Origin: Bacillota bacterium
Lineage (GTDB): Bacteria; Bacillota_I; Bacilli_A; Acholeplasmatales; Acholeplasmataceae
DNA: 40,543 nt
Reading direction: 5' to 3'
Assembly (NCBI GenBank): GCA_018817915.1
Contig: JAHISX010000055.1
Coordinates: 1 to 40,543 of the forward strand
Below, in pieces: positions 1,318 to 40,365 of this stretch (its first letter is position 1; every line of letters begins with the position of its first letter). The notes beneath the pieces were generated by a model, which made no database searches, was not told the origin of the DNA, and saw nothing but the letters and a program-made list of their open reading frames with translations. Made by a program: the position numbers and the translations under genes.

Positions 1318-1518
1318 AATCATTCTCCTTTCAAGGTTAATATTTATGACGCACCTTAATCTTACTTCTTTATCTAACTTAATACAACTATAAACGACAC
1401 AATATAGGGATAACTGTACAAAAGATCATCCTTTTAAATATATAAACATTAAAAAGAGTAATAATTGATGATTTTATGGAAATATATATTGAAGAATGTT
1501 AAAAGTAATTTCTATTTT

Positions 1519-1547
1519 TTGTGATAAAATTGTATTAAATATAAAAT
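1519..1547 (+). promoter_or_regulatory. Promoter of the InlB-repeat/BMP lipoprotein gene
   Basis: TTGTGA (1519-1524) and TAAAAT (1542-1547) are separated by 17 bases, shortly before the GGAGGG ribosome binding site at 1558-1563. Inference from consensus only. Confidence 0.5.
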
Positions 1548-1570
1548 ACATTTCACTGGAGGGATTATTT

Positions 1571-11627: not shown

Positions 11628-11743
11628 CATGTTATTAAACATGAACAAAAATCAGGGGGAATATGGGATAAGAGTAATTAGATAATGAACAAATTTCATT
11701 TTAATACTTAAATCATCATATCGTGAACAAAGGGGGAATTCAA

Positions 11744-17600: not shown

Positions 17601-18216
17601 CTCATATGATAGAGATTATGGTCCAATTGGTGGATTTGATATGATGGATTATAATGTTGGCGATCATGGACCATTTAATAAGCTCATGTTTGGATGGTTA
17701 CACCCTTTATTAGCAACTACAGGTTCTTATGAAGTAACAATAGACTCATATTCAATAGATACAGATGGTGTCTCAAGTGCAATCTTGATTCCTTATAATG
17801 CTAATGATTTAAATGATGGTAATGCATTTGATGAATATCTCTTAATTATTTTCTATACACCAGAAGGTTTGTATAGTGCTCACATGAATACAGGTTATGA
17901 GCTTGATCAAGCGGGTGTTGTGATTTATCATATTGATGCGAGAATGAATCCATCTGCAGGATTTTGGGATAATTACTTCAGCTATAATAACGATGGATCA
18001 TCACTGTTCATTGCTGAGATATTAGAAGCTGATTTCAATAATTCGATTCCTGGCTCAACACAAACAATAGAAATGTCAGATATTTTGACCAGTGGATCAA
18101 TCGATTTAAGTTCATATACATGGCATCAAGGTGGTTCAATTGATGTTTCAATAGAAATATCTAGTCTGTTTACCAATACGAGTGATTCAATATCATTTAT
18201 ATTGACGGTATCTTAA
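14683..18216 (+). CDS. Lipoprotein with InlB-type repeats and an M6-family metalloprotease domain
   Basis: The 1177-residue product has a lipoprotein signal ending ILASC (Cys20). Two InlB/Flg_new repeats follow (about 28-165), then a MucBP-like beta domain (about 170-236). Next come two tandem copies of a roughly 100-residue unit (about 247-345 and 362-462), each with LFGFDIYS or IFGFDIYS near the start and ESWILGDYY or ASWILGDYY, then IYGD, near the end. A beta-sandwich-like stretch follows. The catalytic domain (about 785-1005) has the zinc motif HEMGHLMGFPD (His961, Glu962, His965) and the M6 features IGGFDMMDY and GPFNKLMFGWL. M6 enzymes (immune inhibitor A type) are secreted proteases; here it would be membrane-tethered. 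It may release peptides for nutrition or process surface proteins. It has its own promoter and terminator. Confidence 0.85.
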   Translation: MKIYKKFILIIGMLFILASCIQEGGFSIIFNSNGGNVLESLTYDGSSLVLPDNPTKTGYDFDGWYLDDVTFLVPFSIQSILDEPLQNDLTVFAKWSINQYTISFDSNGGTSLASITQDYLTSVTEPDDPTRDGYIFVGWYTDAFLTSAYTISTMPAEDLTLYAKWANDPEVTYTIIWQNEDGTVLETDEVEAGTVPTYDGSTPVKDSTETYTYTFTGFTPTISFVTGDQVYVATYEENLIEEQTEFDPDLLNDLFGFDIYSTIPSFSTSDYYFGNYSDPTFFDIFVDMFDWTETDFNNYIDLLDSSLSYDSLEESWILGDYYLYVYADNYTYERLIVYGFGIYGDNANGTGETGESFDSNDLNTIFGFDIYSLMPAFTSNDALLLDYSDSTIYEVYIDIFDWSEADGLAYIDLLDALLAYDEVEASWILGDYYIYVYADDESYDGLIVYGIGIYGDVTSTPLDNLYYVFDVQSTTTTLTTSYKDNVDQSLIFSGSSGKVVVQSSYLAQITGTPPSGLTNGVIFAANVADIANPLVYLEIDTLGQTIETMSFQIEARDSFSTNLLGAVLQVYNGSAWVNLEGGDFYSQLSSDQVLITINHINASQFRLLFTGSGITSNGGQFKISTVSLYTSSSVIIESWDEAVLMLEGYLSETALSELFPQFENLTDIELNRISNSHYAIIAGLVTASNTQTIDQYIADLIVGGFALDSELSTTYGENVYTLVISDDIAYAVYVTYDETSLEMHIWKYDPLVEIGLLDTLVTRQTINEFEVEEFSQSGLPSVGTYDVLVIPVEISGYPFASDYLTNLDLVFNGNSATTGWESVSSYYEKSSYGLLDLTFVISNKYTTTNTKEYYQNYGTDGDQYAITEALTALDFQIDFSHYDSNNDGLIDSIIFIYSVDYNYDSDPWWAWVYAAQYGEASSIGSLDGKAFEYYMWASYTFSEDALPGMSGLVVNAETYIHEMGHLMGFPDLYSYDRDYGPIGGFDMMDYNVGDHGPFNKLMFGWLHPLLATTGSYEVTIDSYSIDTDGVSSAILIPYNANDLNDGNAFDEYLLIIFYTPEGLYSAHMNTGYELDQAGVVIYHIDARMNPSAGFWDNYFSYNNDGSSLFIAEILEADFNNSIPGSTQTIEMSDILTSGSIDLSSYTWHQGGSIDVSIEISSLFTNTSDSISFILTVS

Positions 18217-24774: not shown

Positions 24775-25545
24775 GTGGAAGTTTTTATTTTGGCTAGTGG
24801 CTCAAAAGGAAATATGGCCTACTTAAAAGTAGGCGATATTAGATTGTTTATTGATGCCGGAATTAGCTATCAAAAAGTTAAAAATAAAATGGTAGCTTAT
24901 GAAGAGAACCTTTATGACGTTAGATCGCTCTTAATCACACATGAACATCATGATCATGTGATGGGGTTAAAGATGCTTCTTAAACAAGGTGCTATTGAAG
25001 ACATATACATAACAAAAGGAACATATAACGCGCTACCAACTGAGGTGGTTGCGCTTTTTGAACGTACACATTTTATTAGTGCTGATGTTCCATTTTTTAT
25101 GAGTGATATTAAGGTTTCACCATTCATGCTATCACATGATGCTGCAGAGCCAGTTGGGTTCGTGATTGAAAACCAAATGAAGAAGATGGTTGTCTTAACG
25201 GATACTGGTTATGTTGATCAAAGCTATCATGAAATGCTAAGCAATGCTGATTTATATCTTCTAGAAGCGAACCATCATCCTACTAAGTTAATGAATTCAG
25301 CAAGACCTTTCTTATTAAAGAAGAGAATTTTAGGTGAAAGAGGGCATTTGTCTAATGATGATGCTGCGTGGCTCGTTAATCTATTTGTTAAAGATAGACC
25401 CAGTAAATGGGTTGTAGCACATATATCAGAAGACTGCAATACATGCTTAGACATCGAAGAATCGATCGTTAAGGTGTTTGATGATCCAACAAAAATCGAA
25501 ATTTATTATGCATCACAGGCAAGTCTTCCAGGCATTAAACTATGA
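24775..25545 (+). CDS. yycJ: YycJ/WalJ-type metallo-beta-lactamase-fold hydrolase
   Basis: The 256-residue protein has the opening VFILASGSKGN and the metal-binding THEHHDHVMGL (HxHxDH), with further ligands in LSHDAAEPVGF, LTDTGYV and EANHH. The WalJ/YycJ group are MBL-fold nucleases linked to the WalRK operon in Bacillus. No walRK genes are present here. I start at GTG 24775, which follows AGAAGGTGA and gives the usual N-terminus. The stop overlaps the rlmH start by four bases (ATGA), so the two are coupled; the order yycJ-rlmH is also found in other Firmicutes. Confidence 0.9.
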   Translation: MEVFILASGSKGNMAYLKVGDIRLFIDAGISYQKVKNKMVAYEENLYDVRSLLITHEHHDHVMGLKMLLKQGAIEDIYITKGTYNALPTEVVALFERTHFISADVPFFMSDIKVSPFMLSHDAAEPVGFVIENQMKKMVVLTDTGYVDQSYHEMLSNADLYLLEANHHPTKLMNSARPFLLKKRILGERGHLSNDDAAWLVNLFVKDRPSKWVVAHISEDCNTCLDIEESIVKVFDDPTKIEIYYASQASLPGIKL

Positions 25546-25985
25546 TTAAAGTGATTGTTGTGGGTAAGATGAATCAAAAATACTTAGAACAAGGCATTTT
25601 ATATTATCAAAAACAGTTACCTATTAAATTAGAATGGGTAGAAGTTTCAGATGAAGCGAGTATTCAAGGTAAGGATATTGAAGGTGATCGCATTCTATCT
25701 AAGATTAAAGATTCTGATTTAGTCATCGCATTAGCCATTGAGGGTAAGATGTTAGATAGTGAGGGATTTGCTAAGATGTTAGATGAAGCAGAAACCTACC
25801 ATCAAGGTGATATAGCATTTGTGATTGGTGGATCTTACGGGTTAAGTGAAAGTGTCATGAAAAGAGCTAATCAAAAAATATCATTTTCTAAAATGACATT
25901 TCCTCATCAATTGATGAGATTAATCTTAATTGAGCAGATCTATAGGGGATACATGATTTTAAAAAATCATCCCTATCATAAGTGA
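25542..25985 (+). CDS. rlmH: 23S rRNA pseudouridine-1915 N3-methyltransferase
   Basis: A 147-residue SPOUT methyltransferase with the SAM-binding trefoil-knot motif FVIGGSYGLSESVMKRANQK and the C-terminal HQLMRLILIEQIYRGYMIL, then HPYHK. RlmH methylates pseudouridine 1915 in helix 69 of 23S rRNA on assembled ribosomes. It is slightly shorter than the usual 155-159 residues, the difference lying before the SAM site. It overlaps yycJ by four bases and ends with TGA. Confidence 0.95.
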   Translation: MIKVIVVGKMNQKYLEQGILYYQKQLPIKLEWVEVSDEASIQGKDIEGDRILSKIKDSDLVIALAIEGKMLDSEGFAKMLDEAETYHQGDIAFVIGGSYGLSESVMKRANQKISFSKMTFPHQLMRLILIEQIYRGYMILKNHPYHK

Positions 25986-25993
25986 GGTTGAAT

Positions 25994-26614
25994 ATGAAAT
26001 ATATATTTTGGGATTTTAATGGGACAGTTTTAGATGACGCATATCTTTGTTATGAGATCTTAAATGAAATGTTAATCGAAGAAGAAAGACCTATTGTCAC
26101 TTTTGATGAGTATTTAATGATCTTTGATTTTCCAGTAGAAGCTTATTATGATAAAGTTTATGACCTAAAAAAGACAAGTTTTGAGATTTTGGCACATCGC
26201 TTCATCGAAAGATATCAACCAAGAAGCTTAGAATTAGCATTACATGAAGGTGTTATTGATGCAATTCAGCATTATGAGAAAAAAGGATTTACAAATATCA
26301 TGTTATCTGCTTCTGAAATCAATAATCTACATCGTCAATTAAACCATTTTAAGATAGAGCACTTGTTTGATCATATCTTGGGAACATCAGATGTTTATGC
26401 TAAAAGTAAAGTTGCTGTAGCAAAGAGATTCATAGAAGAAAATGAAATAGATCCTAAAGATGTAACGATGATTGGTGATACACTTCATGATGTAGAAGTT
26501 GCTCATGAGTTAGGTTGTGAAATCATTTTGTATACTAAGGGACATCAACATAAAGATAGACTTAAAGGATATCAATCGATAGATGATATGAAAGAGTTGT
26601 ATCAAATTATCTAA
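25994..26614 (+). CDS. HAD-superfamily hydrolase, phosphoglycolate-phosphatase-like
   Basis: The 206-residue protein has HAD motif I DFNGTVLDD near its start, motif II LSAS, motif III lysine region KSKVAVAKRF and motif IV MIGDTLHDVEVA. The nucleophile Asp is present, but the second acid of motif I is Asn (DFN instead of DFD). This variant occurs in a HAD subgroup and may alter activity. The cap region is helical, as in the Gph-like class. Substrate unknown. GAGG lies 6 bases before ATG 25994, so I prefer it to GTG 25982, although the latter overlaps the rlmH end. It is the last gene of the yycJ operon; no terminator is evident after it. Confidence 0.82.
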   Translation: MKYIFWDFNGTVLDDAYLCYEILNEMLIEEERPIVTFDEYLMIFDFPVEAYYDKVYDLKKTSFEILAHRFIERYQPRSLELALHEGVIDAIQHYEKKGFTNIMLSASEINNLHRQLNHFKIEHLFDHILGTSDVYAKSKVAVAKRFIEENEIDPKDVTMIGDTLHDVEVAHELGCEIILYTKGHQHKDRLKGYQSIDDMKELYQII

Positions 26615-29328: not shown

Positions 29329-29361
29329 AAGCTTGGTTCAAATTGAACCAAGCTTATTTTT
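29329..29361. terminator. Bidirectional terminator between rsgA and pdxT
   Basis: AAGCTTGGTTCA (29329-29340) and TGAACCAAGCTT (29344-29355) form a perfect 12-base stem with a 3-nt loop, with T-runs on both strands; the pdxT stop codon overlaps it. Confidence 0.9.
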
Positions 29362-29920
29362 TAATGATCATATGAAGAAAATACTCGTGAACATAAGTGC
29401 TATCTGTAAGTTCTGGGTGAAAGGCGGTTGCTAATTGATTTTTTTGTCTAACAGCAACTATTCTATCATCAACAATTGATAATGTTTCTACACCTTGACC
29501 ACAACTATGAACATATGGTGCACGAATGAATGTCATTGGTATTTCAAGACCATTAAATAAATTGTGAGTAAAGAAGCTTCCTAGTTGTCTACCATATGCA
29601 TTTCTTTCAACGCTAATATCCATGGTTTCTAAACTGTTTTGATTTGAATTTGTTAATCCCTTAGCAAGTAATATCATACCAGCACAAGTGCCTAGAACAG
29701 GTAATCCCGTTTCAACACTTTCTTTAATAGAATTAAACATGTCCAAATCTTTTAATAATCTAACCATTGTGGTACTTTCACCACCTGGTAAGATTAAACC
29801 ATCCATTTTCTTATCTAAATCTCTTTTTTGTCTAATTTCAAAGGTTTGAACATTTAACTTTGCTAAAACCTTAGCATGCTCAATGAAAGCCCCTTGAACT
29901 GCAAGGATGCCAATGATCAT
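29354..29920 (-). CDS. pdxT: Pyridoxal phosphate synthase glutaminase subunit
   Basis: The 188-residue class I glutamine amidotransferase has the catalytic Cys in GTCAGMILLAKG, the His-Glu pair in FHPELT, the oxyanion segment LPGGESTTM and the usual start GILAVQGAF-EH. It hydrolyses glutamine and passes ammonia to PdxS in the PLP synthase complex. Its ATG overlaps the pdxS stop (TAATG), so translation is coupled and the stoichiometry matched. Confidence 0.97.
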   Translation of the reverse strand: MIIGILAVQGAFIEHAKVLAKLNVQTFEIRQKRDLDKKMDGLILPGGESTTMVRLLKDLDMFNSIKESVETGLPVLGTCAGMILLAKGLTNSNQNSLETMDISVERNAYGRQLGSFFTHNLFNGLEIPMTFIRAPYVHSCGQGVETLSIVDDRIVAVRQKNQLATAFHPELTDSTYVHEYFLHMIIKK

Positions 29921-30795
29921 TATTTTCCTCTTTCAGCCATCAAGAGTTCTATTTCTTGTTCATTGATACCAACCATAGCTTCACCTAAATCTTCTGAGAT
30001 TTCAGCAAGGATCTTTGGATCATTAAAGTTTGTTACTGCTTTGACGATCGCTTCAGCTCTCTTTTGAGGATTACCGGACTTAAATATTCCCGAACCAACA
30101 AAGACACCTTCAGCGCCTAATTGCATCATTAAAGCTGCATCAGCAGGAGTAGCTATACCACCAGCAGCAAAGTTAACAACTGGTAACTTTCCATTTTCAT
30201 GAACATACATTAATAAATCTAAAGATACACCTAATTGTTTTTGTAGTATAAAGATTTCAGTTGGATCCATGGATTGTATAGAACGCATTTCTTTTTGGAT
30301 TGCTCTCATGTGTCTAACTGCTTGAATAACATCACCAGTACCAGGTTCGCCCTTCGTACGGATCATTGCAGCACCTTCGCTGATGCGTCTAAGTGCTTCA
30401 CCTAAGTCTTTAGCGCCACAAACAAAAGGTACATTAAATTTAGTTTTATCAATATGATGGATATCATCAGCAGGTGATAAAACTTCACTTTCATCAATAT
30501 AATCGATTTCGATTGCTTCTAAGATTTGTGCTTCAACAAAATGACCAATTCTAACTTTAGCCATGACTGGAATTGACACAGCATCTTGAATTTGTTTAAT
30601 CATCTTTGGGTCACTCATTCTAGAAACACCGCCAGCAGCTCTAATATCTGCAGGAATTCTTTCTAGTGCCATCACGGCAACCGCTCCAGCTTTCTCTGCT
30701 ATTTTTGCTTGCTCAGGATTTGAGACATCCATGATGACGCCACCCTTTAACATTTGAGCAAGTTCTTTGTTTAATTTATATCTATCGTTTTGCAT
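29920..30795 (-). CDS. pdxS: Pyridoxal 5'-phosphate synthase lyase subunit
   Basis: The 291-residue TIM-barrel enzyme makes PLP from ribose 5-phosphate, glyceraldehyde 3-phosphate and ammonia. Recognisable segments are [40 protein letters not shown], the active-site lysine segment [10 protein letters not shown], the second lysine in [17 protein letters not shown], and the phosphate-binding [15 protein letters not shown] and FVGSGIF. Length and order are typical. TGGAGG precedes the start. It is read with pdxT, divergently from a MocR/PdxR-like gene that probably controls it. Confidence 0.98.
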
Positions 30796-30828
30796 TGTAA
30801 AACCTCCATTTGATATATTTCCACATCT

Positions 30829-30857
30829 ATTATATAATAATAACTGGTATGTTGTAA
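30829..30857 (-). promoter_or_regulatory. pdxST promoter
   Basis: Minus-strand TTACAA (30857-30852) and TATAAT (30834-30829) with a 17-base spacer. The spacer holds one arm of the inverted repeat at 30844-30888. Confidence 0.65.
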
Positions 30858-30888
30858 TGGTCAGTTTGATAAATTAAGAGCATACCAG
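30844..30888. promoter_or_regulatory. Inverted repeat, likely operator of the pdx divergent region
   Basis: CTGGTATG (30844-30851) and CATACCAG (30881-30888) are perfect inverted copies 29 bases apart, between pdxS and the MocR-type gene. One arm lies between the -35 and -10 of pdxST. MocR/PdxR proteins bind such spaced repeats as dimers; binding here is inference. Confidence 0.6.
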
Positions 30889-30899
30889 ATGGTGAACGT

Positions 30900-32306
30900 A
30901 TGTTTGATACATTTAATAAAGATTCTAAGAAGGATACACTTTATGTATCTCTTTATAAACACATCAAAAAAATGATTAAAGAAAACAAATATCAAGAGGG
31001 ACAAAAGTTGCCTTCCAAAAGAAGATTGGCTGAAGATTTACATATCAGTCCTTTAACAGTAGAAGCTGCTTATCAACAACTCATTGCTGAAGGATATGTC
31101 TATGCAATTGAGAAAAAAGGATACTATGTAGATGAGCAAATAGAACTTGTGGAATCGCATAAAAAGAATATCAAATTTAAATCTCAAAATGATGCTGAAG
31201 TTGTACCTGAATATCAGTATGCATTTAGAACAAATGTTGTTGATACGTCCTTGTTTCCTAATACAACATGGGCAAGACTATCTAGAGAAGTCTTATCTGA
31301 AAATCATCATGAGATGCTCAATGTAACTCATCCACAAGGTGTTTTAATGCTCAGAAAAGAAATCGCTAAGTACCTAGAACTCTATAGAGGCATGAATGTT
31401 TCAGAAGAACAAATCATTATCGGTTCAGGCAGCTCATCACTGATTAGTATATTAATTGAACTACTAGGTAGAGATAAACATTATGCAATTGAAAACCCTG
31501 GATACTCTAAAAATTATGCTTTATATAAAGGTAATGATGTCAGATTATCTTTGATTTCACTCGATGATTCTGGTATTAAAATTGATGATCTCATTCAATC
31601 AAATGCAGAGATTGTCCATATCACACCATCCCATCAATTTCCGATGGGCATCGTCATGCCCATCCAAAGAAGAATTGAATTACTTAATTGGTCAAACCGC
31701 TTCATAGGGCGATATATCATTGAAGATGATTACGATAGTGAATTTAGATTTCAAGGGAAACCAATTCCAGCGCTTCAAGGGTTCTATGAAAATGATCAAG
31801 TTATCTACATGAATACATTTGCTAGAACACTCGCGCCATCATTTAGAATGAGTTATATGGTATTGCCACTAAAATTACTGCCAAGATATCATCAAATCAT
31901 GACCTATCATGGATGTACAGTGCCTAATTCTGAACAATATATTATGTATAAATTTATGCACGGTGGATTTTTCGAACGTCATATTAATCGGATGAGAAAT
32001 CAATACAGACAAAAAATAGAGTTGATTTTGAAAATGGTTGAAAACTATCCCAATGTAAGACTTAAGGGTTATGATGCGGGTCTTCATTTCTTAATGGAAA
32101 TTGAGACAAATGATACAGAAGCATCATTAATTGAAAAAGTGGCACAACACCATATCTATGTGACTGGTCTCAGTTCTTATGATCATAAGATTCATTCATC
32201 TCATTCAAATCCAACTTTAGTCATAGGTTATTCTGGTATAAAAAAAGAGGAAATCGAACAATCAATTTCCGCTCTTTTTCAATCAATTAATATAAGTAAA
32301 TCATAG
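30900..32306 (+). CDS. pdxR: MocR/PdxR-like GntR-family regulator lacking the PLP lysine
   Basis: The 468-residue protein has an N-terminal GntR winged helix (about 12-80, with KLPSKRRLAEDLHISPLTVE) and a fold-type I aminotransferase-like domain (about 110-460). In the PdxR and GabR families the latter binds PLP. Most landmarks are kept: IGSGSSSLI, HITPSHQFPMGI, IEDDYDSEFRF (Asp276, Tyr278) and Arg316. The segment that normally reads FSKTL, with the Schiff-base lysine, is FARTL here: Arg309, codon AGA. So it cannot form the usual internal aldimine and may sense PLP or another ligand noncovalently. It is divergent from pdxST and probably controls it. The ribosome binding site is weak. An aminotransferase role is unlikely. 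Confidence 0.88.
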   Translation: MFDTFNKDSKKDTLYVSLYKHIKKMIKENKYQEGQKLPSKRRLAEDLHISPLTVEAAYQQLIAEGYVYAIEKKGYYVDEQIELVESHKKNIKFKSQNDAEVVPEYQYAFRTNVVDTSLFPNTTWARLSREVLSENHHEMLNVTHPQGVLMLRKEIAKYLELYRGMNVSEEQIIIGSGSSSLISILIELLGRDKHYAIENPGYSKNYALYKGNDVRLSLISLDDSGIKIDDLIQSNAEIVHITPSHQFPMGIVMPIQRRIELLNWSNRFIGRYIIEDDYDSEFRFQGKPIPALQGFYENDQVIYMNTFARTLAPSFRMSYMVLPLKLLPRYHQIMTYHGCTVPNSEQYIMYKFMHGGFFERHINRMRNQYRQKIELILKMVENYPNVRLKGYDAGLHFLMEIETNDTEASLIEKVAQHHIYVTGLSSYDHKIHSSHSNPTLVIGYSGIKKEEIEQSISALFQSINISKS

Positions 32307-32518: not shown

Positions 32519-33613
32519 TTATGCGTTTTCCAAAATTGCTGCAATAGGAATGATTAAGAATGCTAACCAAGATAATTGGAACATATTAAAGAAATAACCA
32601 ATTGAGAAGAATAAGACGACTGCAACAAATGGTGTAATTGAAGCAAATCTAAACTTATCAAACAATAGAATAGATACAACTGGAATGAGTAAGAAGATTT
32701 GCCAAGCATATGCCCAACCATTCAATAGTAAGCCAAGCGCTACGAATACAGCAATGGATAACGCGATGGTAGAAAGTAATATAATTGTCTTTTTACGCAA
32801 TGGTCCTTTGGGTATATCCCATACAAAATTCATTTCACCAAACATCATACTCACTGCGATTGGTAAAATAAATCCTAAACCACCAATAAGCCAACTGCCT
32901 TGAACATACCCCATATATAAGTAGAATGGTATTGCAACTACAAAGGATAACTCAGATACAATCATCTTCCAAAAAGTTCTCATCTGAAGAATACCTAACA
33001 TAGGAATGATTAAGAATACCAACCAACCTGGGTTCCATAAATCATAATATGTACCTAAGATCATGAATGCAATGACTGCTGCAAATGGTGATAGAGCAAC
33101 AAATACATCTTTTAATCTTGTATTTAAGATAATAGAAATCACAGGAATAAATAAGAAGACCAACCAACCCGGATGCCATAAACCATACTTAAATCCTAAA
33201 AGTAAGTAAGCAAGTGTACAAATAAATGGTGATAGAGCAACAATGGAGTTTTTAGCGTTTGAGTTTAAAACGATAGCCGTCATCGGAATGAGTAAGAAAA
33301 CCAACCAACCTGGATGCCATAAATCCCAACCAAAACCTAAAATCATAAAGATAATCACACTAATGAATGGCATTAAAGCAACAATCTTATTTCTCTTATA
33401 ATTATGTTGCTTAATTTTGATTGAATCAATGAGTTCATAAGCAACTTGTCTAGGATTACCTAACAATTGATAAATCTCATCATCTGTCTTTCCTTTGCTT
33501 AAAGCGTCATCATATAACTGACCATAATCACTTAAGATATCATCTATATCAGTTTTGCTTGCTTGAAACTCTTGTAATTGATCTCTTAATTTTTCTAAAT
33601 ATTTAGCTTTCAT
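32519..33613 (-). CDS. DUF1700/HAAS-domain membrane protein with six tandem two-helix repeats
   Basis: The 364-residue product starts with a helical cytoplasmic domain (1-72) of the DUF1700/HAAS type: YLEKLRDQLQ, ILSDYGQLYDDALSKGKTDD and LLGNPRQVAYELI. The rest is six tandem repeats of about 44 residues, each with two hydrophobic helices, giving about 12 membrane segments. The first three are nearly identical in the core, with LWHPGWLVFL or LWNPGWLVFL and ALSPF or ALMPF; the last three have diverged. PadR regulators are commonly paired with HAAS membrane proteins. It overlaps the padR gene by 11 bases, so the two are coupled. Its role may be membrane-stress sensing or transport; neither is shown. 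The MFS remnant lies beyond it. Confidence 0.8.
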   Translation of the reverse strand: MKAKYLEKLRDQLQEFQASKTDIDDILSDYGQLYDDALSKGKTDDEIYQLLGNPRQVAYELIDSIKIKQHNYKRNKIVALMPFISVIIFMILGFGWDLWHPGWLVFLLIPMTAIVLNSNAKNSIVALSPFICTLAYLLLGFKYGLWHPGWLVFLFIPVISIILNTRLKDVFVALSPFAAVIAFMILGTYYDLWNPGWLVFLIIPMLGILQMRTFWKMIVSELSFVVAIPFYLYMGYVQGSWLIGGLGFILPIAVSMMFGEMNFVWDIPKGPLRKKTIILLSTIALSIAVFVALGLLLNGWAYAWQIFLLIPVVSILLFDKFRFASITPFVAVVLFFSIGYFFNMFQLSWLAFLIIPIAAILENA

Positions 33614-33926
33614 CTTTCAAACCTCCTAATAATTTAAATACACCTTTTAAGAATGCTGTCCATTCTCCTTCATATTCATCGAGTTTCTCTTTACCTAATG
33701 CTGTGATTTGATAATATTTTCTAGGTGCGCCTATATTGGTTTGTTCCATATATGTATCAAATAAGCCTTGACTTGTTAGTCGTCTTAAAATTGGATATAC
33801 TGTGTTTTCGTTCACATCGATATCAGTAGCAAGCTTTTCTATAACTTCATAACCGTACATATCTCGCTTTTTGATGATGCTTAGAATACACATTTCGACA
33901 ATACCTTTTTTGAATTGAGTATTCAT
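33603..33926 (-). CDS. PadR-family transcriptional regulator
   Basis: The 107-residue protein is a compact PadR winged helix: FKKGIVEMCILSIIKKRDMY, GYEVIEKLATDIDVNENTVY, PILRRLTSQGLF and GAPRKYYQIT. It then has a C-terminal dimerisation helix. I start at ATG 33926, directly behind AAGGAGAG; the longer in-frame start at 33995 would read through the likely promoter. PadR proteins usually repress their own operon and respond to envelope stress or antimicrobials. Repeats in the promoter fit autoregulation. Confidence 0.92.
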   Translation of the reverse strand: MNTQFKKGIVEMCILSIIKKRDMYGYEVIEKLATDIDVNENTVYPILRRLTSQGLFDTYMEQTNIGAPRKYYQITALGKEKLDEYEGEWTAFLKGVFKLLGGLKDES

Positions 33927-33935
33927 TATATCTCT

Positions 33936-34033: not shown

Positions 34034-34062
34034 TTGTCTTTTTAAAGAGAATGTGATACCAT
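34034..34062 (+). promoter_or_regulatory. Promoter of the aro operon
   Basis: TTGTCT (34034-34039) and TACCAT (34057-34062) with a 17-base spacer ending TGA (extended -10 TGATACCAT). Transcription would start near 34069, 20 bases before the leader peptide gene. Confidence 0.5.
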
Positions 34063-34088
34063 AAAACAAACAAAGAAAGGTGATTTCT

Positions 34089-34133
34089 ATGTTAAAAATA
34101 AAGGAAGCTGTCTATTATTACGCATATCATTAG
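34089..34133 (+). CDS. Tyrosine-rich leader peptide of the aro operon
   Basis: ATG 34089 to TAG 34133 encodes MLKIKEAVYYYAYH, with a good ribosome binding site (AAAGGTGA). Three consecutive Tyr codons (34113-34121) and a fourth (34125-34127) lie just before the stop. The operon behind it holds DAHP synthase and tyrA, which lead to tyrosine. This is the layout of a ribosome-mediated attenuator: scarce Tyr-tRNA would stall the ribosome near codons 9-13. Confidence 0.75.
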   Translation: MLKIKEAVYYYAYH

Positions 34134-34134
34134 A

Positions 34135-34229
34135 AAAAAGGATTGCAAGGCATTCCTTTTTGAGCGAATAAAGGAACAGCCAAAAAATGACTAACGTTCA
34201 TCCTTGGGGTTCCTCTCAGGGATTTTTTT
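34135..34229 (+). promoter_or_regulatory. Tyrosine attenuator: alternative hairpins and terminator before DAHP synthase
   Basis: Four alternative pairings are seen. (a) AAAAAGGA (34135-34142), just after the leader stop, with TCCTTTTT (34154-34161). (b) TTCCTTT (34153-34159) with AAAGGAA (34170-34176), extended by GGC/GCC. (c) AGGAAC and CCAA (34172-34183) with TTGG and GTTCCT (34204-34214), the antiterminator. (d) ATCCTTG (34200-34206) with CAGGGAT (34217-34223) followed by seven T, the terminator. Pairings a and b exclude each other, as do b and c, and c and d. A ribosome at the leader stop would cover the first arm of a and favour b and d (off). One stalled at the Tyr codons would leave a free and favour c (on). 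Confidence 0.7.
34200..34229 (+). terminator. Attenuator terminator of the aro operon
   Basis: Stem ATCCTTG/CAGGGAT (one wobble) at 34200-34206 and 34217-34223 with a 10-nt loop, then seven T (34223-34229), 26 bases before the DAHP synthase start. Confidence 0.8.
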
Positions 34230-34254
34230 ATTTAAACTTAGGAGCGTACAGAAC

Positions 34255-35274
34255 ATGATTATTCAAATGAAAAAGAACTCCACTAAAAAGGAGTACGAAA
34301 AGATTGTCGAATATTTAAAGGCTAAAAAATTAGAGATCAAAGATGCATCAACCGATGAGGTCCGTGTCTTTGGTATTATTGGTGATACTTCCAGTATCGA
34401 TCCAACTGATCTATATGCTTTTGATGGTGTTAAGGAAGTTACAAGAGTATCGACACCATTTAAGAAAGCAAGTCGCAGCTTTAAGAAAAAAGATACCATC
34501 GTTAAATTAAAAAATGGAATTGAAATAGGTGGAGACCGTTTCATTGTGATGGCAGGACCTTGTTCGATTGAATCTGAAGAACAATTAAGAATCATTGCTA
34601 AGAGTGTTAAGAAATCAGGTGCTCATCTTTTAAGAGGGGGAGCGTATAAACCAAGAACTTCACCTTATGCTTTTCAAGGCTTAGAAGTTGAAGGCTTAAA
34701 GATATTAAGAAAGATTGGAGACGAAACAGGTTTAGCTGTCGTCACTGAAATTCCTAGTCCTGACCTAATTCCTTTATTTGAAGAATATGTTGATATCATT
34801 CAAGTTGGAGCAAGAAACATGCAAAACTTCCATTTGCTTAAAGCTTTAGGCAAATGTAACACACCTATTTTATTAAAAAGAGGTTTATCAGCAACCATTG
34901 AAGAATGGTTAATGTCTGCTGAATATATTATGGCAGGCGGTAATGAAAATGTTATATTGTGCGAACGCGGCATTCGCACATATGAAAAATATACAAGAAA
35001 CACGCTAGATATTAGTGCTGTTTTAGCAGTTCAAGAACTATCCCATCTTCCAGTCATCATTGACCCATCACATGCAGCAGGCAGATGGAACATGATTGAA
35101 AAACTATCCTTAGCAAGTCTTGCTGTTGGAGCTTCTGGATTAATCGTTGAAGTTCATCATGATCCAGAACATGCATTAAGTGATGGTGCTCAGTCATTGA
35201 AGCTGAATAAGTTTACCCATATGATGGAAGAACTTGAAAAGATTTCAGATGTTTTAGGTAAAAAGATTAAATGA
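34255..35274 (+). CDS. aroF: 3-deoxy-7-phosphoheptulonate (DAHP) synthase, type I-beta
   Basis: The 339-residue protein joins an N-terminal ferredoxin-like regulatory domain (about 1-75) to the DAHP synthase/KDO8P synthase barrel: VMAGPCSIES, LLRGGAYKPRTSPYAFQG, VGARNMQNF, LLKRGLSATIEEWLMSAEY, ILCERGIRTYE and IIDPSHAAGR. It condenses phosphoenolpyruvate and erythrose 4-phosphate, the first step of the shikimate pathway. In the Thermotoga enzyme the ferredoxin-like domain mediates Tyr and Phe feedback inhibition, which may hold here. I start at ATG 34255, behind TTAGGAG; the longer frame from 34204 begins inside the attenuator terminator. It overlaps tyrA by four bases. Confidence 0.96.
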   Translation: MIIQMKKNSTKKEYEKIVEYLKAKKLEIKDASTDEVRVFGIIGDTSSIDPTDLYAFDGVKEVTRVSTPFKKASRSFKKKDTIVKLKNGIEIGGDRFIVMAGPCSIESEEQLRIIAKSVKKSGAHLLRGGAYKPRTSPYAFQGLEVEGLKILRKIGDETGLAVVTEIPSPDLIPLFEEYVDIIQVGARNMQNFHLLKALGKCNTPILLKRGLSATIEEWLMSAEYIMAGGNENVILCERGIRTYEKYTRNTLDISAVLAVQELSHLPVIIDPSHAAGRWNMIEKLSLASLAVGASGLIVEVHHDPEHALSDGAQSLKLNKFTHMMEELEKISDVLGKKIK

Positions 35275-36101
35275 AGATTTTTATTGTAGGTCTTGGTATC
35301 ATTGGGGCTTCTTATGCCGAAGGACTCCATTTAAAAGGCCATCAAATATATGCCTATAATAGAAGTGAAAGACCAATTACACAAGGGATTAAAGAAGGTT
35401 TTATTGAAAAAGATAATGCCCTCGATAAACTAACAGCTTGTGATTTGGTTATTTTAGCGTTATATCCTAAGTACAATATTGAATTTGTTCAAAAAAATAT
35501 TCATCTTTTTATTCCCGGACAAATGGTAACAGATGTTAGTGGAACGAAAGTTTGGATGATGAATGAATTGGAACAACTCTTACCAAAAGGTATTTCTTAT
35601 ACTTCACATCATCCTATGGCAGGAAAAGAAACAAGTGGATATGATTCTAAAGATTATAAGATGTTTGAAAATGCCAATTTTATCATTGTTACAGGCTCAA
35701 GAAGCGAAAAAAGAGACAAAGAAGTCTTAAGACTTATCGCAAACAACCTTAATTTTGGTAAAATAACAGTAGTACCTTCACAAACACATGATGAACTAAT
35801 CGCTTTTACGAGTCAACTCACACATGTTTTGGCGATTGCACTTATGCAAAGTGATCGTTTAAAAGAAACAAAAGAAGCAACCGGAGATTCATTTAGAGAT
35901 TTAACGAGAATTGCTAAAATCAATGAAACGATGTGGACTGAACTGTTTTTAGAAAACAAAGAAGCCTTAGTTAGTAAGATGAATGATTTCATGGAAGAAA
36001 TGAAATATATTAAAGAATTGATTTTAGTTGAAGATAAAGATGCGCTTATGAAGTATCTTAAGGAAGCAAAAGAAAAGAGGAAAGATTTTGACATACATTA
36101 A
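35271..36101 (+). CDS. tyrA: Prephenate dehydrogenase
   Basis: The 276-residue protein has the NAD-binding start IFIVGLGIIGASYAEGL, the middle VTDVSGTKVWM and the active-site HHPMAGKETSGYDS. A helical dimerisation domain follows, with AFTSQLTHVLAIAL and SFRDLTRIAKIN. It converts prephenate to 4-hydroxyphenylpyruvate, the precursor of tyrosine. It has no ACT domain, so feedback would rest on the DAHP synthase and the leader. It starts with an ATGA overlap on the preceding stop and overlaps aroB by 14 bases. Confidence 0.93.
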   Translation: MKIFIVGLGIIGASYAEGLHLKGHQIYAYNRSERPITQGIKEGFIEKDNALDKLTACDLVILALYPKYNIEFVQKNIHLFIPGQMVTDVSGTKVWMMNELEQLLPKGISYTSHHPMAGKETSGYDSKDYKMFENANFIIVTGSRSEKRDKEVLRLIANNLNFGKITVVPSQTHDELIAFTSQLTHVLAIALMQSDRLKETKEATGDSFRDLTRIAKINETMWTELFLENKEALVSKMNDFMEEMKYIKELILVEDKDALMKYLKEAKEKRKDFDIH

Positions 36102-37101
36102 AATGCCTCAATATGACATTTTCATCGAGAAAAATGGTTTATTGAATTTACCAAAGTATATCGCTGATGTCTATACCTACCATGATATCTATATCGTTAC
36201 TGATGAAACGGTTTATGAATTGTATGGTAAAAAGATTGAAAATATTTTGGTAACTCACAAGGTGTTTTTTGTTGTAGTCAAACCTGGAGAAAAATCTAAG
36301 TCTTTAGATACATATCATCAAGTGGTTAAAGAACTTGTCCAAAAAGGGATGAGAAGAAATCATTTACTGATTGCCTTAGGTGGCGGTGTGGTTGGAGATT
36401 TAACTGGCTTTGTAGCATCAACCATCTTCAGAGGCGTACCATTTGTCCAAATTCCAACAACTTTACTAGCTCAAGTGGATAGTAGTGTGGGAGGGAAGGT
36501 CGGTATCGATTTAGAAGAAGGTAAAAATCTAGTCGGATCTTTCTACAATCCTTTATTTGTCTTAATAGATCCAGAATTCTTAAAAACTCTTTCAAAAAGA
36601 GAATATGCAAATGGTCTAGCTGAAATGATTAAAGCAGGACTCATCGGTGATAAAAAGCTTTATCACCATCTTTTAAGTCATGATCTAGTAACTGAAGAAG
36701 AAATCACGATGGCTATTCAAGTAAAACGAGCTGTTGTTTTAGTAGATCCATATGATAAGAAAGAAAGAATGTTTTTGAATTTTGGCCATACTTTTGGGCA
36801 TGCCATTGAAAAGAAACATCATTATGAATCTTATAAACATGGCGAAGCCATTAGTTATGGTATGCTATTTGCCCTTCAAGTTGGTATTAAATATCATGAG
36901 ACAAAACAAGAGTTATATGATGAAGTTAAAGAACTTCTTTTAGCAAGAGGTTTAGTTAAAGAACCTTTACTTAAAATGGAAGACTACATCCGTGAAATTC
37001 AATCAGATAAGAAATTTTTAGCAAACGGACTCAATTTCATTATTGTAGATCGTATTGGAGATGCAAAAATCGTTCCACTCAAGGAAAGTGATTTTCTATG
37101 A
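36088..37101 (+). CDS. aroB: 3-dehydroquinate synthase
   Basis: The 337-residue enzyme shows the NAD-site GGGVVGDLTGFVASTIFRG, IPTTLLAQVDSSVGGKVGID, EGKNLVGSFYNP, the metal ligand region NGLAEMIKAGLI, and HTFGHAIEKKH with HGEAISYGM. It converts DAHP to 3-dehydroquinate. The start is probably TTG 36088: GAGG lies 7 bases before it, while ATG 36103 is too distant. TTG together with the 14-base overlap may lower its translation. Confidence 0.96.
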   Translation: MTYIKMPQYDIFIEKNGLLNLPKYIADVYTYHDIYIVTDETVYELYGKKIENILVTHKVFFVVVKPGEKSKSLDTYHQVVKELVQKGMRRNHLLIALGGGVVGDLTGFVASTIFRGVPFVQIPTTLLAQVDSSVGGKVGIDLEEGKNLVGSFYNPLFVLIDPEFLKTLSKREYANGLAEMIKAGLIGDKKLYHHLLSHDLVTEEEITMAIQVKRAVVLVDPYDKKERMFLNFGHTFGHAIEKKHHYESYKHGEAISYGMLFALQVGIKYHETKQELYDEVKELLLARGLVKEPLLKMEDYIREIQSDKKFLANGLNFIIVDRIGDAKIVPLKESDFL

Positions 37102-38357
37102 ACATAAAAATCACACCTAAACCATTAACAGGTAAGGTTTCTGTTGTCTCATCTAAATCTTTATCTCATCGATATATCATCGCATCCGGTTTAGCGCATG
37201 GGACAAGTGTCATTAACAATGTTTTAGACTCTGACGACCTAGTAGCCACCAAAGGTGCATTAAGCGCTTTAGGGACTCAATTTGAGGGTGATAAAGTCAT
37301 TGGAAATGATTTGATTCTTAGCCAATCAACGATTGATTGCAAAGAATCAGGGTCTACCTTAAGATTTATGATTCCTATCCTTTTGTTACAAAAGGAAAAG
37401 GTTACATTCACTGGTAGTGGTAGATTACCTTTACGTTCTTTAGATGTCTATTTTGATCTATTCAAACAAAAAAATATTCATTATACAAGACCAGAAGATG
37501 CTTATTTGCCTTTAGAGGTCAAAGGACCTCTTAGAGCTGGATATTATCCGATGAGAGGTGATGTCAGTTCACAATTCTTAACCGGACTATTATTTGCCTT
37601 ACCTTTATTAAATAAAGATTCAGTTATAGAAATAACAACACCTTTAGAATCCAGAGGATACATCAATCTAACATTAGATACACTCAGATTATTTGGTATA
37701 CATATTTTAGAAGTTGATCAATATTTCTATATTAAGGGTGGACAAAAGTATTTACCTATAGAAGCTACCGTTGAGGCCGACTATTCACAAGCAGCCTTCT
37801 GGATGGTTGCCGGTATCATTGGAGGAAAAATAGAATTATCCAATCTTGATCCATTAACCAAACAAGGTGATTATAAAATTGTTGATATCATAAAAAGCAT
37901 GGTTGGATCGATTGAATATGATGATGCATCACGTATTTACTCTATTGAACCAAGCGAAACATTTGGAATCACCATTGATTTAAGTCAAATCCCTGATCTA
38001 GGACCAATCTTAATGGTTTTAGCTTCATTAAGTAAAAATACAACAATATTTACCAATGCATCACGTCTAAGAATTAAAGAATCAGACCGATTGGATGCTA
38101 TGTATCAAACCTTATTAAAATTTGGTGTTGATGTTGAAATGAAAGCTGATAGTATGGTTGTTAAAGGGACGAAGATACTCAAAGGAAACCAAACTTTTGA
38201 TACCTTTGGGGATCATAGAATCGCAATGGCAATTGCGATAGCAGCAATTCGAGCAGATGGTCCAGTTACTATTTTAAATGCTGATGTTGTCAGCAAATCT
38301 TATCCAAAATTCTTTGAAGTCTATCAAAGCCTAGGAGGTGACATTCATGAGTCTTGA
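37098..38357 (+). CDS. aroA: EPSP synthase (3-phosphoshikimate 1-carboxyvinyltransferase)
   Basis: The 419-residue enzyme has the shikimate-3-phosphate site SSKSLSHRYIIASGLA, the ESGSTLRFM motif, GDVSSQFLTGLLFALP, SNLDPLTKQGD, RIKESDRLDAM and GDHRIAMAIAIAA. It joins shikimate 3-phosphate and PEP. The double inverse-barrel layout and length are normal. It overlaps aroB by four bases (ATGA). The segment NESGSTLRF-like glyphosate-site variants were not classified. Confidence 0.96.
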   Translation: MNIKITPKPLTGKVSVVSSKSLSHRYIIASGLAHGTSVINNVLDSDDLVATKGALSALGTQFEGDKVIGNDLILSQSTIDCKESGSTLRFMIPILLLQKEKVTFTGSGRLPLRSLDVYFDLFKQKNIHYTRPEDAYLPLEVKGPLRAGYYPMRGDVSSQFLTGLLFALPLLNKDSVIEITTPLESRGYINLTLDTLRLFGIHILEVDQYFYIKGGQKYLPIEATVEADYSQAAFWMVAGIIGGKIELSNLDPLTKQGDYKIVDIIKSMVGSIEYDDASRIYSIEPSETFGITIDLSQIPDLGPILMVLASLSKNTTIFTNASRLRIKESDRLDAMYQTLLKFGVDVEMKADSMVVKGTKILKGNQTFDTFGDHRIAMAIAIAAIRADGPVTILNADVVSKSYPKFFEVYQSLGGDIHES

Positions 38358-38601
38358 TGAGTTAAGAATACAAATCGATGAAATCGATCAGAAAATGATG
38401 CGTCTATTCAAAGATAGAATGACTGTTTCTCAAATGATAGGTGACTATAAGAAAATCAATCATCTACCAGTCCTTGACCAAAATAGAGAAAAAGAACTAT
38501 TAAATAAAAGAAAAGAGCAATTGAATGATGATCAATTGTGGCCACTTTATGAATCATTCATTAAAGAGGTTATGAAGCTTTCTAAGGCGTATCAAAAATG
38601 A
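38347..38601 (+). CDS. Chorismate mutase, AroQ class
   Basis: The 84-residue all-helical protein has the AroQ chorismate mutase pattern: LRIQIDEIDQKMMRLFKDRM, then VSQMIGDYKK, PVLDQNREKELL and the last helix around FIKEVMKLSK. It rearranges chorismate to prephenate, the substrate of TyrA in the same operon. I start at ATG 38347, since AGGAGGTG lies 6 bases upstream; the in-frame GTG at 38338 lies inside that site. It overlaps aroA by 11 bases and aroE by four. Confidence 0.92.
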   Translation: MSLDELRIQIDEIDQKMMRLFKDRMTVSQMIGDYKKINHLPVLDQNREKELLNKRKEQLNDDQLWPLYESFIKEVMKLSKAYQK

Positions 38602-39386
38602 GTGCGCGTTATGCTTTAATCGGTCATGATATTAGCTATAGCAAATCACCATGGATTCATAGATTCATGGCTAAAAAGCTTCATATGGATATGACCTATG
38701 ATTTATTAGAAGTTGAAGCTGATGAGCTTAAAGATTTGATAGATGACCTTAGAGAAGGTCTATATCAAGGATTTAATGTCACCATTCCTTATAAAGAGGT
38801 TATCATTCCATATCTTGATGAACTCACCTATAAGGCAAAAAATATTGGAGCAGTGAATACCATTTACATCAAAAATGGTATCGTTTATGGTGATAATACG
38901 GATTATGATGGGTTTGTTGGTTTATTAGAAAGCAATCAAATCAATGTTAGATCAAAGAATGTTTACATTCTAGGTACAGGTGGAGCAGCGAAAGCTGTCT
39001 ATCATGCATTAATTGATTTAGGAGCAAACGTAACGGTTGTGAGTAGAAACTTGGCAACGAAAGAAAAAATCTTTAATCATGTGATTGAATATGGAGAAAT
39101 TAAACCACATATGGTAGATATCTATGTTCAGGCTACACCGATAGGTACTTATCCCAATGTGAATGTTTCTGTTTTAACAAAAGATGAAGTTGAAGGTAAA
39201 GTGGTTATCGACTTAATCTACAATCCTTTAGAAACACAAATCATGAAAGATAGCAAACAAGGGATTAGCGGTATATCGATGCTTATTATTCAAGCATTAA
39301 AAAGCGAAGAAATTTGGTTTGATCAAGAAATTGAACTTACAGATCAATTAATGAAACAATTGAAAGAAGTGATACTAGATGAATAG
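38598..39386 (+). CDS. aroE: Shikimate dehydrogenase
   Basis: The 262-residue enzyme has the substrate-site Ser motif YSKSPWIHRFM, catalytic Lys in NVTIPYKE, NTIYIKNG, DNTDYDGF and the NADP loop ILGTGGAAKAVYHAL, then VVSRN. It reduces 3-dehydroshikimate to shikimate. Its ATG overlaps the previous stop and its 3' end overlaps aroC by eight bases. Confidence 0.95.
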   Translation: MSARYALIGHDISYSKSPWIHRFMAKKLHMDMTYDLLEVEADELKDLIDDLREGLYQGFNVTIPYKEVIIPYLDELTYKAKNIGAVNTIYIKNGIVYGDNTDYDGFVGLLESNQINVRSKNVYILGTGGAAKAVYHALIDLGANVTVVSRNLATKEKIFNHVIEYGEIKPHMVDIYVQATPIGTYPNVNVSVLTKDEVEGKVVIDLIYNPLETQIMKDSKQGISGISMLIIQALKSEEIWFDQEIELTDQLMKQLKEVILDE

Positions 39387-40365
39387 TTATGGCAATCTAT
39401 TTAAAGTAACTTTATATGGCGAATCTCATCAAGAGGCAATCGGCATCGTGATTGATGGCATGCCATCAGGTGTTCAAATCGATGAAAAAAAGATAACTGA
39501 TGATTTGAATCTGAGAAAACCAGGAGCAGTAGGAACAACACCCAGACAAGAAGCTGATCTTTTTAAGATTACCTCCGGTGTTTTTAATGGGTTTTCTACA
39601 GGATCACCAATTCATCTGATGATTGAAAATCAAAATGTTCAATCTAAAGACTATGAACACTTAAAAAAACAGCCAAGACCAGGTCATGCTGATTTTGTAG
39701 CAAACGCTAAATATAAAGGATTTCAAGACTATCGTGGAGGCGGAAGATTCTCAGGTAGACTGACTGCGCCTTTGGTTGCAGCAGGTTCCATCGCTAAAAT
39801 GATTCTACCATTCGAATTTCAACATGAATTAGTTCAAGTAGGAACGCTTAAAGATATGTCTAAATTGGATGAATATTTAAGTAAGGTAGCACTAGAAGGT
39901 GATTCAGTAGGTGGTATTGTAGAAGTTACTGTAAATAATATGGTCGTTGGATTAGGCGAACCTTTCTTTAATAAGATAGATGCTGAAATAGCAAAGATGA
40001 TGTTCTCCATTCCTGCAGTTAAAGGTGTTGAAATTGGAACTGGGTTTTCCGGAGTTCAATTAAAGGGTAGCCAGTTTAATGATGAAATCATTAGTTCGAA
40101 AGGAACAACGAAGACCAATCATAGTGGTGGCACCTCTGGTGGCATCTCAAATGGTAATGATCTTGTTGTGAGAGTTTTTATTAAACCAACATCAAGCATC
40201 AAAAAAGAACAGCAAACCTTTAATTTTGAAACAGATCAAGTAGATCCACTAGAAATTGGTGGAAGACATGATGTCTGTATCGCAAGAAGAGCTGGTATTG
40301 TATTAGAAAATGCAATAGCAATCGTCTTAGCAGATTTATACTTAATCAATAAAGCATATTTATAA
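39379..40365 (+). CDS. aroC: Chorismate synthase
   Basis: The 328-residue enzyme shows all three classical signatures: GESHQEAIGIVIDGMPSG at the start, YRGGGRFSGRLTAPLVAAGS, and GGRHDVCIARRAGIVLENA at the end. It converts EPSP to chorismate with reduced FMN. It is somewhat shorter than the usual 350-390 residues, with the C-terminal tail trimmed. It is the last gene of the operon. Confidence 0.96.
   Translation: MNSYGNLFKVTLYGESHQEAIGIVIDGMPSGVQIDEKKITDDLNLRKPGAVGTTPRQEADLFKITSGVFNGFSTGSPIHLMIENQNVQSKDYEHLKKQPRPGHADFVANAKYKGFQDYRGGGRFSGRLTAPLVAAGSIAKMILPFEFQHELVQVGTLKDMSKLDEYLSKVALEGDSVGGIVEVTVNNMVVGLGEPFFNKIDAEIAKMMFSIPAVKGVEIGTGFSGVQLKGSQFNDEIISSKGTTKTNHSGGTSGGISNGNDLVVRVFIKPTSSIKKEQQTFNFETDQVDPLEIGGRHDVCIARRAGIVLENAIAIVLADLYLINKAYL

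Follow-up and report, generated by a model that had tools for sequence, protein, structure and literature searches.

A candidate tyrosine-codon leader-peptide attenuator ahead of the chorismate operon in Acholeplasmataceae, with three competitors for one RNA strand

The window, by which we mean the whole stretch of 40,543 nucleotides that was analysed, is one contig of a source genome of 2.1 Mb whose nearest named genomes are Acholeplasmataceae, in agreement with the Mollicutes-like character that an earlier examination of the bare letters (hereafter the sequence-only reading) had attributed to it. On its plus strand, the window carries an operon in which DAHP synthase, tyrA, aroB, aroA, chorismate mutase, aroE, and aroC follow one another in that order with overlapping ends. 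The DAHP synthase (34255–35274, +), as the first gene of the predicted regulated operon, scored over the cut-offs of NF006421 and TIGR01361 and contained PF00793 together with PF18152. The second gene, tyrA (35271–36101, +), was placed in the prephenate dehydrogenase family, tyrosine-specific branch, with a best family E of 3e-45 that lies below the curated cut-offs, whereas the genes from aroB to aroC occupy 36088–40365 (+), with the chorismate mutase, of type II, at 38347–38601 (+).

A promoter could be read from the sequence at 34034–34062 (+), formed by a −35 box TTGTCT (34034–34039), a spacer of 17 nt, and an extended −10 box TGA-TACCAT (34054–34062). This promoter, about 30 nt 5' of a short leader ORF, would place the start of the RNA near 34069; it was absent from the output of a consensus promoter scan at the stringency used, and relatives carried identical boxes with identical spacing, as in L016 (TTGTCT-17-TGATACTAT) and also in L023. 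A Shine–Dalgarno sequence, AAAGGTGA (34076–34083, +), whose GGTGAT is kept in most homologous leaders, precedes the leader-peptide ORF MLKIKEAVYYYAYH (34089–34133, +), whose 14 codons, between the ATG at 34089 and the TAG at 34131–34133, comprise four for Tyr (34113–34121 and 34125–34127) and none for Phe; the ORF, its stop, and its Tyr codons had been located to the exact base by the sequence-only reading. Among the 197 short ORFs of the window that are preceded by a Shine–Dalgarno sequence, four contained YYY or at least four Tyr, and MLKIKEAVYYYAYH is the one of these that stands ahead of the aro genes. An ORF with its ribosome-binding site in front of a biosynthetic operon is what would be expected, as judged from the letters, of a ribosome-mediated attenuator of the trp/his/phe type.

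Divergent from the aro leader are the genes for a PadR-family regulator (33606–33929, −) and for a membrane protein in which WHPGWLVFL segments recur (32519–33613, −); the leader promoter is situated inside the intergenic region that they share with it. Further upstream, at 29354–32306, pdxS/pdxT on the minus strand diverge from a MocR-like PdxR regulator in an ordinary vitamin B6 regulon, and at 1496–3103, 11723–13900, and 14683–18216 large proteins with signal-peptide-like starts contain repeated 'NGG...GYxFDGWY' segments which, by eye, resemble Listeria–Bacteroides repeats.

The RNA between the start of the leader ORF and the DAHP synthase contains a chain of segments with more than one possible partner. 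Region 1 (34107–34121, +), consisting of GCUGU plus Tyr codons, is followed immediately after the leader stop by Ha (34135–34146, +), the 5' arm of a hairpin; by Hb, GGCAUUCCUUUUU (34149–34161, +), which may pair with either Ha or region 2; by region 2 itself, AAAGGAACAGCCAA (34170–34183, +), for which region 1, Hb, and region 3 are alternative partners; and by region 3, UUGGGGUUCCU (34204–34214, +), which pairs with region 2 in the antiterminator or with region 4 in the terminator. An AUGA/UCAU extension of the antiterminator (34187–34201, +; 34187–34190/34198–34201) was paired in 93.5% of the alignment cells. The intrinsic terminator (34200–34230, +), lying between the leader ORF and the first gene, has a stem of 10 pairs (34200–34209/34214–34223) plus a U run, and was recovered by a terminator scan as 34200–34223 with TTTTTTATTT.

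The fold states were modelled with ViennaRNA by removing the 5' part of the leader at the ribosome edges. In the transcript 34129–34215 the hairpin 34135–34142/34154–34161 (Ha:Hb, 34135–34146/34150–34161) formed together with the antiterminator helices 34172–34177/34209–34214 and 34180–34183/34204–34207 (z −2.4), while from 34147 on the helix 34149–34159/34170–34181 (Hb:region 2) formed along with the terminator stem 34200–34209/34214–34223. These two alternative folds and the terminator coincide base for base with those drawn in the sequence-only reading, which missed, nevertheless, a further competitor: when the whole leader was left free, the minimum-free-energy fold paired 34107–34111, with an extension into the Tyr codons, to 34176–34180, and the terminator was formed as well, the leader fold having a z of −3.0 to −3.3. 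The region 1:region 2 helix would be expected to constitute the default off state of a leader on which no ribosome is loaded.

These parts suggest the following mechanism. If tyrosine were short, a ribosome stalling on the Tyr codons would hide region 1 and leave the Ha:Hb hairpin intact, so that region 2 would be free to pair with region 3, the terminator would be blocked, and the operon would be transcribed. If tyrosine were plentiful, the ribosome would reach the stop, and its leading edge, at about 34144, would invade Ha and release Hb, which would capture region 2, thus allowing region 3 to pair with region 4 and transcription to stop. Were no ribosome present, region 1 would capture region 2, and transcription would also stop. 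The stalling by uncharged tRNA-Tyr, the coupling of transcription with translation, and the change of read-through in vivo are inferred. The likeness to the his and trp operon attenuators lies in the end-product codons of the leader peptide, in the chain of mutually exclusive helices, and in the terminator that comes last. The wiring recalls the his attenuator of enterobacteria, where a ribosome at the stop acts via an intermediate hairpin and a segment is freed to take up the antiterminator strand. The present leader differs from those enterobacterial systems in having codons for tyrosine instead of His or Trp, in the pairing of region 1 with region 2 and not with its neighbour, and in the location of region 2 some 40 nt past the stop, for which reason the ribosome would have to act through Ha and Hb.

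To place the leader in an evolutionary context, we searched for DAHP synthase in 160 genomes of the order and then read the upstream DNA, an approach that gathered 51 homologous leaders from nine genera of the Acholeplasmataceae and, in a second family, from a single genus, Acholeplasma granularum (L079) being among the carriers. All 51 (of which one terminator, that of L035, was set by hand) comprised a short ORF with 2–6 Tyr codons followed by a terminator, so that the conservation of ORF and Tyr codons in relatives, which the sequence-only reading had proposed to look for, was found without exception. Tyr accounted for 219 of the 730 codons (164 TAT and 55 TAC, which replace each other among leaders in the manner of synonymous drift), Phe for 44, and Trp for 0; no Phe codon was present in 19 of the leaders, that of the window included. 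The cluster of codons thus corresponds to the end product of an operon whose second gene is tyrA, and tyrA lay directly 3' of the DAHP synthase at every homologous locus with sufficient flank. The block GGCAUUCCUUUUU was nearly invariant. In the complete genome of strain zrk7 (L046/L074, CP076021.1 near 561052–562066) the frame of the DAHP synthase is apparently broken, which could be a sequencing error, and the leader is intact. In the sampled Anaeroplasmataceae the leader was not seen, though the DAHP synthase–tyrA arrangement is kept there; in some members of that family (L052–L054) a T-box-like sequence was observed, by eye, ahead of a second DAHP synthase.

The helices, for their part, proved to be conserved as pairings. 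Over the 51 leaders, the mean duplex z against dinucleotide shuffles was −2.3 for region 1:region 2 (which was not significant singly in 23 of them), −3.0 for Ha:Hb, −2.5 for Hb:region 2, and −2.1 for region 2:region 3. Within the main clade the named pairs held in 94–97% of the cells, as against 38–68% for slid versions, the counts being taken from alignment A4 only, since alignments A1–A2 misplace the terminator loop of L009–L011 and region 2 of the second family. Few columns in that clade vary on both sides, as may be expected because the strands have several partners each, and column-wise covariation of region 1:region 2 within the main clade was not significant; the case for region 1 rests, therefore, on the evidence between clades. 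There the arms differ greatly yet pair, as exemplified by GGAACAGCC/GGGGUUCC versus GGAAAUGUAC/GGACAUUCC, and the region 1:region 2 duplex was present in all clades with its arms changed in concert. When the arms were swapped among 14 representatives, permutations as low as the native combination numbered 0 (region 1:region 2), 16 (Ha:Hb), 182 (Hb:region 2), and 3 (region 2:region 3) of 20,000, which places all four helices at or below about 0.01; with 9 distinct clades the values were clear for region 1:region 2 (0.00004) and region 2:region 3 (0.0001) and marginal for Ha:Hb (0.09) and Hb:region 2 (0.06), all these p-values being overstatements in that the leaders are phylogenetically related and do not constitute independent evidence. 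The covariation of the stems, another check put forward in the sequence-only reading, accordingly came out in favour of native over swapped arms, and the antiterminator that excludes the terminator has been conserved by evolution.

To estimate the effect of the ribosome's position, we masked 13 nt, beginning with the A-site codon's first base, and took the expected number of antiterminator pairs as the readout. As the sequence-only reading had anticipated, this number depended on where the ribosome was placed: a stall at the Tyr run gave a higher value than a ribosome at the stop in 50 of the 51 leaders (mean 10.0 vs 7.2) and exceeded the ribosome-free value in 48, the mean difference between Tyr run and stop falling from 2.76 to 0.20 (sd 0.28) when the spacer was shuffled. 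For the window's leader alone the computed contrast at equilibrium was modest, with 11.2 versus 10.9 antiterminator pairs at the Tyr run and the stop, respectively, and a full-length terminator probability of 0.71 versus 0.90. In view of that poor separation, the order in which the strands emerge during transcription must do part of the work. When the capture of region 2 before the emergence of region 3 was compared between the two ribosome positions, the stop exceeded the Tyr run in only 32 of the 51 leaders, which is a weak tendency, the corresponding figure in the comparison with no ribosome being 47 of 51. What the sequence-only reading had observed is hence confirmed and its interpretation supported, with a mechanism that is a computed one.

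A candidate upstream ORF designated uORFC-13-1 (Brewer et al., 2021; PMC8632094) has been described from 24 sequences 5' of aroF in Acholeplasma and unknown environmental organisms as standing before a terminator, with a run of phenylalanine codons, a proposed dependence on phenylalanine, and attenuation as the suggested mode of action. The likeness extends to the downstream aroF (DAHP synthase), the host, the −10 and −35 boxes, the ribosome-binding site, the start codon, and the intrinsic terminator that comes next, all of which were found in our leaders, including that of A. granularum. The aro leader is almost certainly the same element, the gene, the host, and the layout being in agreement when compared by the published description only. 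That description includes at least one Phe codon, and since MLKIKEAVYYYAYH has none, we do not formally file the window's leader under uORFC-13-1 as described. The claim of the sequence-only reading that a ribosome-mediated Tyr attenuator for a whole chorismate operon would be new consequently stands for the tyrosine-specific reading and fails for the element, already published as a candidate. The text describing uORFC-13-1 contains no alternative pairing scheme, whereas here a complete switch is proposed, with Tyr in 51 of 51 leaders and a range beyond the family. The element, then, is not wholly new; its novelty lies in the specificity for tyrosine, in a complete switch where three partners compete for a single strand, in a wider range, and in a conflict, considered below, with the predicted uncoupling of transcription and translation.

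Could the leader instead sense phenylalanine, as Brewer et al. proposed (PMC8632094), or aromatic amino acids in general? The 44 Phe codons, the Phe that many leaders have as second codon (MF...), and the F mixed into the run (YYFYY) in several genera would speak for it; nevertheless, this reading does not fit, because the common Phe is that second codon, outside the site where a stall would mask region 1 in most genera, and because the 19 leaders devoid of Phe, like all the rest, contain at least two Tyr. Moreover, the operon's second gene is tyrA, and pheA, which the source genome encodes at another locus, has no leader of this kind; nor was a Phe leader seen ahead of it. We therefore regard a phenylalanine or general aromatic sensor as improbable, and think, from the codons, that the Phe assignment of uORFC-13-1 would be mistaken for what is the same RNA element; the tyrosine reading would accordingly correct the amino acid given to that published motif.

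A leader that binds a metabolite or a protein, in the manner of a riboswitch or of TRAP, with the short ORF being incidental, strikes us as still less probable. A strong structure with a terminator would suit any sensor, and GGCAUUCCUUUUU is nearly invariant; yet the Tyr frame, the Shine–Dalgarno sequence, and the start are kept despite synonymous base changes, the invariance of certain blocks follows from each having two or three partners to pair with, the position of the stop relative to Ha suits a ribosome, and an Rfam riboswitch match is absent. As to a partial terminator that acts constitutively behind a translated leader, with no response to tyrosine, the effects of ribosome position are indeed computed values; such an arrangement, however, would leave unexplained both the Tyr run in every leader and the co-evolution of region 1, Hb, and region 3 with region 2, and we give it hardly any credence. 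The element is thus, with high probability in our judgement, a ribosome-mediated transcription attenuator that would read the charging of tRNA-Tyr and control the chorismate/tyrosine operon.

With respect to known regulatory RNAs, the window gave no match at gathering scores to any Rfam family, including the T-box (RF00230) and the Trp, His, Phe, Leu, and Thr leaders, so that a T-box or other Rfam family at the site was rejected. The tyrosine T-boxes of Firmicutes (RF00230) likewise read tRNA-Tyr charging and control antitermination, but they do so by binding the tRNA directly and without a leader peptide, in contrast to the aro leader. In keeping with the remark in the sequence-only reading that low-GC Gram-positives use T-boxes, the source genome has 13 of them elsewhere, one of which (C56:26283–26457, −) lies ahead of tyrS (25003–26235, −) and shows, as read from the alignment, UAC in the likely specifier loop. 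The charging of tRNA-Tyr is probably read, then, by two different devices in the same genome.

Among leader-peptide systems, AroR, which precedes aroF in Corynebacterium glutamicum (Neshat et al., 2014, as cited in PMC11802643), is also an attenuator before a DAHP synthase; according to the citing text, it encodes a Phe-Tyr-Phe peptide and responds to phenylalanine, with tyrosine availability being without effect. Histidine leaders of the same classical kind, though for his operons, have been predicted in the B. cereus group, the Peptostreptococcaceae, and the Erysipelotrichales (PMC9413887), and a 2005 survey gave tyrosine as T-box-regulated. A literature search for tyrosine-codon leaders produced no other case and no earlier tyrosine-specific classical attenuator.

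Classical attenuation requires a ribosome that keeps pace with the RNA polymerase, and a ribosome-stalling mechanism has rarely been reported in the branch of bacteria to which the wall-less Acholeplasmataceae belong. In B. subtilis transcription outruns translation, and a phylogenetic analysis predicts the same for all Firmicutes (reviewed in PMC10953045), so that the view of this group as largely uncoupled counts against an attenuator. We consider it likely, nonetheless, that the attenuator is strictly tyrosine-specific, is old in the Acholeplasmatales and present in another family of the class as well, and operates through one strand contested by the leader ORF, Hb, and region 3. If that were true, transcription and translation would be functionally coupled in a Firmicutes branch predicted to be uncoupled, and the device would work beside a T-box, that of tyrS, which probably reads the same tRNA. 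The conservation of such a leader across the Acholeplasmatales makes the prediction of uncoupling directly testable in culturable organisms such as A. granularum.

A covariance model built from 28 leaders detected the element in 48 of the 160 genomes of the order, each time as a single copy at the position of the DAHP-synthase leader, and recovered the leader of L141. In 296 genomes of the class the model added three genomes of another family, by which a third family was reached, where the leaders MATLHTAYYYSIVTQ..., MTFIFSTYYYGDI, and MHIFQAFNYYGEYLK stand before DAHP synthase–tyrA; the model includes bases of the ORF, so that the Tyr runs of these leaders are not a fully blind confirmation. 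Erysipelotrichaceae leaders matched it only weakly (E 0.34–0.4), for which reason we refrain from assigning them to this element.

Short Tyr-rich ORFs 5' of the DAHP synthase, including MILKHAYYYYR, MKLKTGRFYYYE, and MNTIVITRSYYYYR, were observed in some genomes of the family of L104, the Erysipelotrichaceae (L104/L186, L191, L199, L205, and L213), and are perhaps an independent Tyr attenuator. In C. difficile and its family relatives (L082, L220–L224, L228, and L232) a conserved upstream ORF of 43–51 aa with many Phe, Tyr, and Trp residues (KLYSFYYFMFWGFYFSAGYFFYK) precedes the DAHP synthase, at about 285 nt 5' of that gene in L082; this ORF, for which Pfam and NCBIfam returned no match, is possibly an aromatic leader peptide. 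Aromatic-rich ORFs 5' of the DAHP synthase were also noted in L103, L086, L126, and L088, which are records of a Clostridia MAG, Flavonifractor, Fusobacteriaceae, and Phascolarctobacterium.
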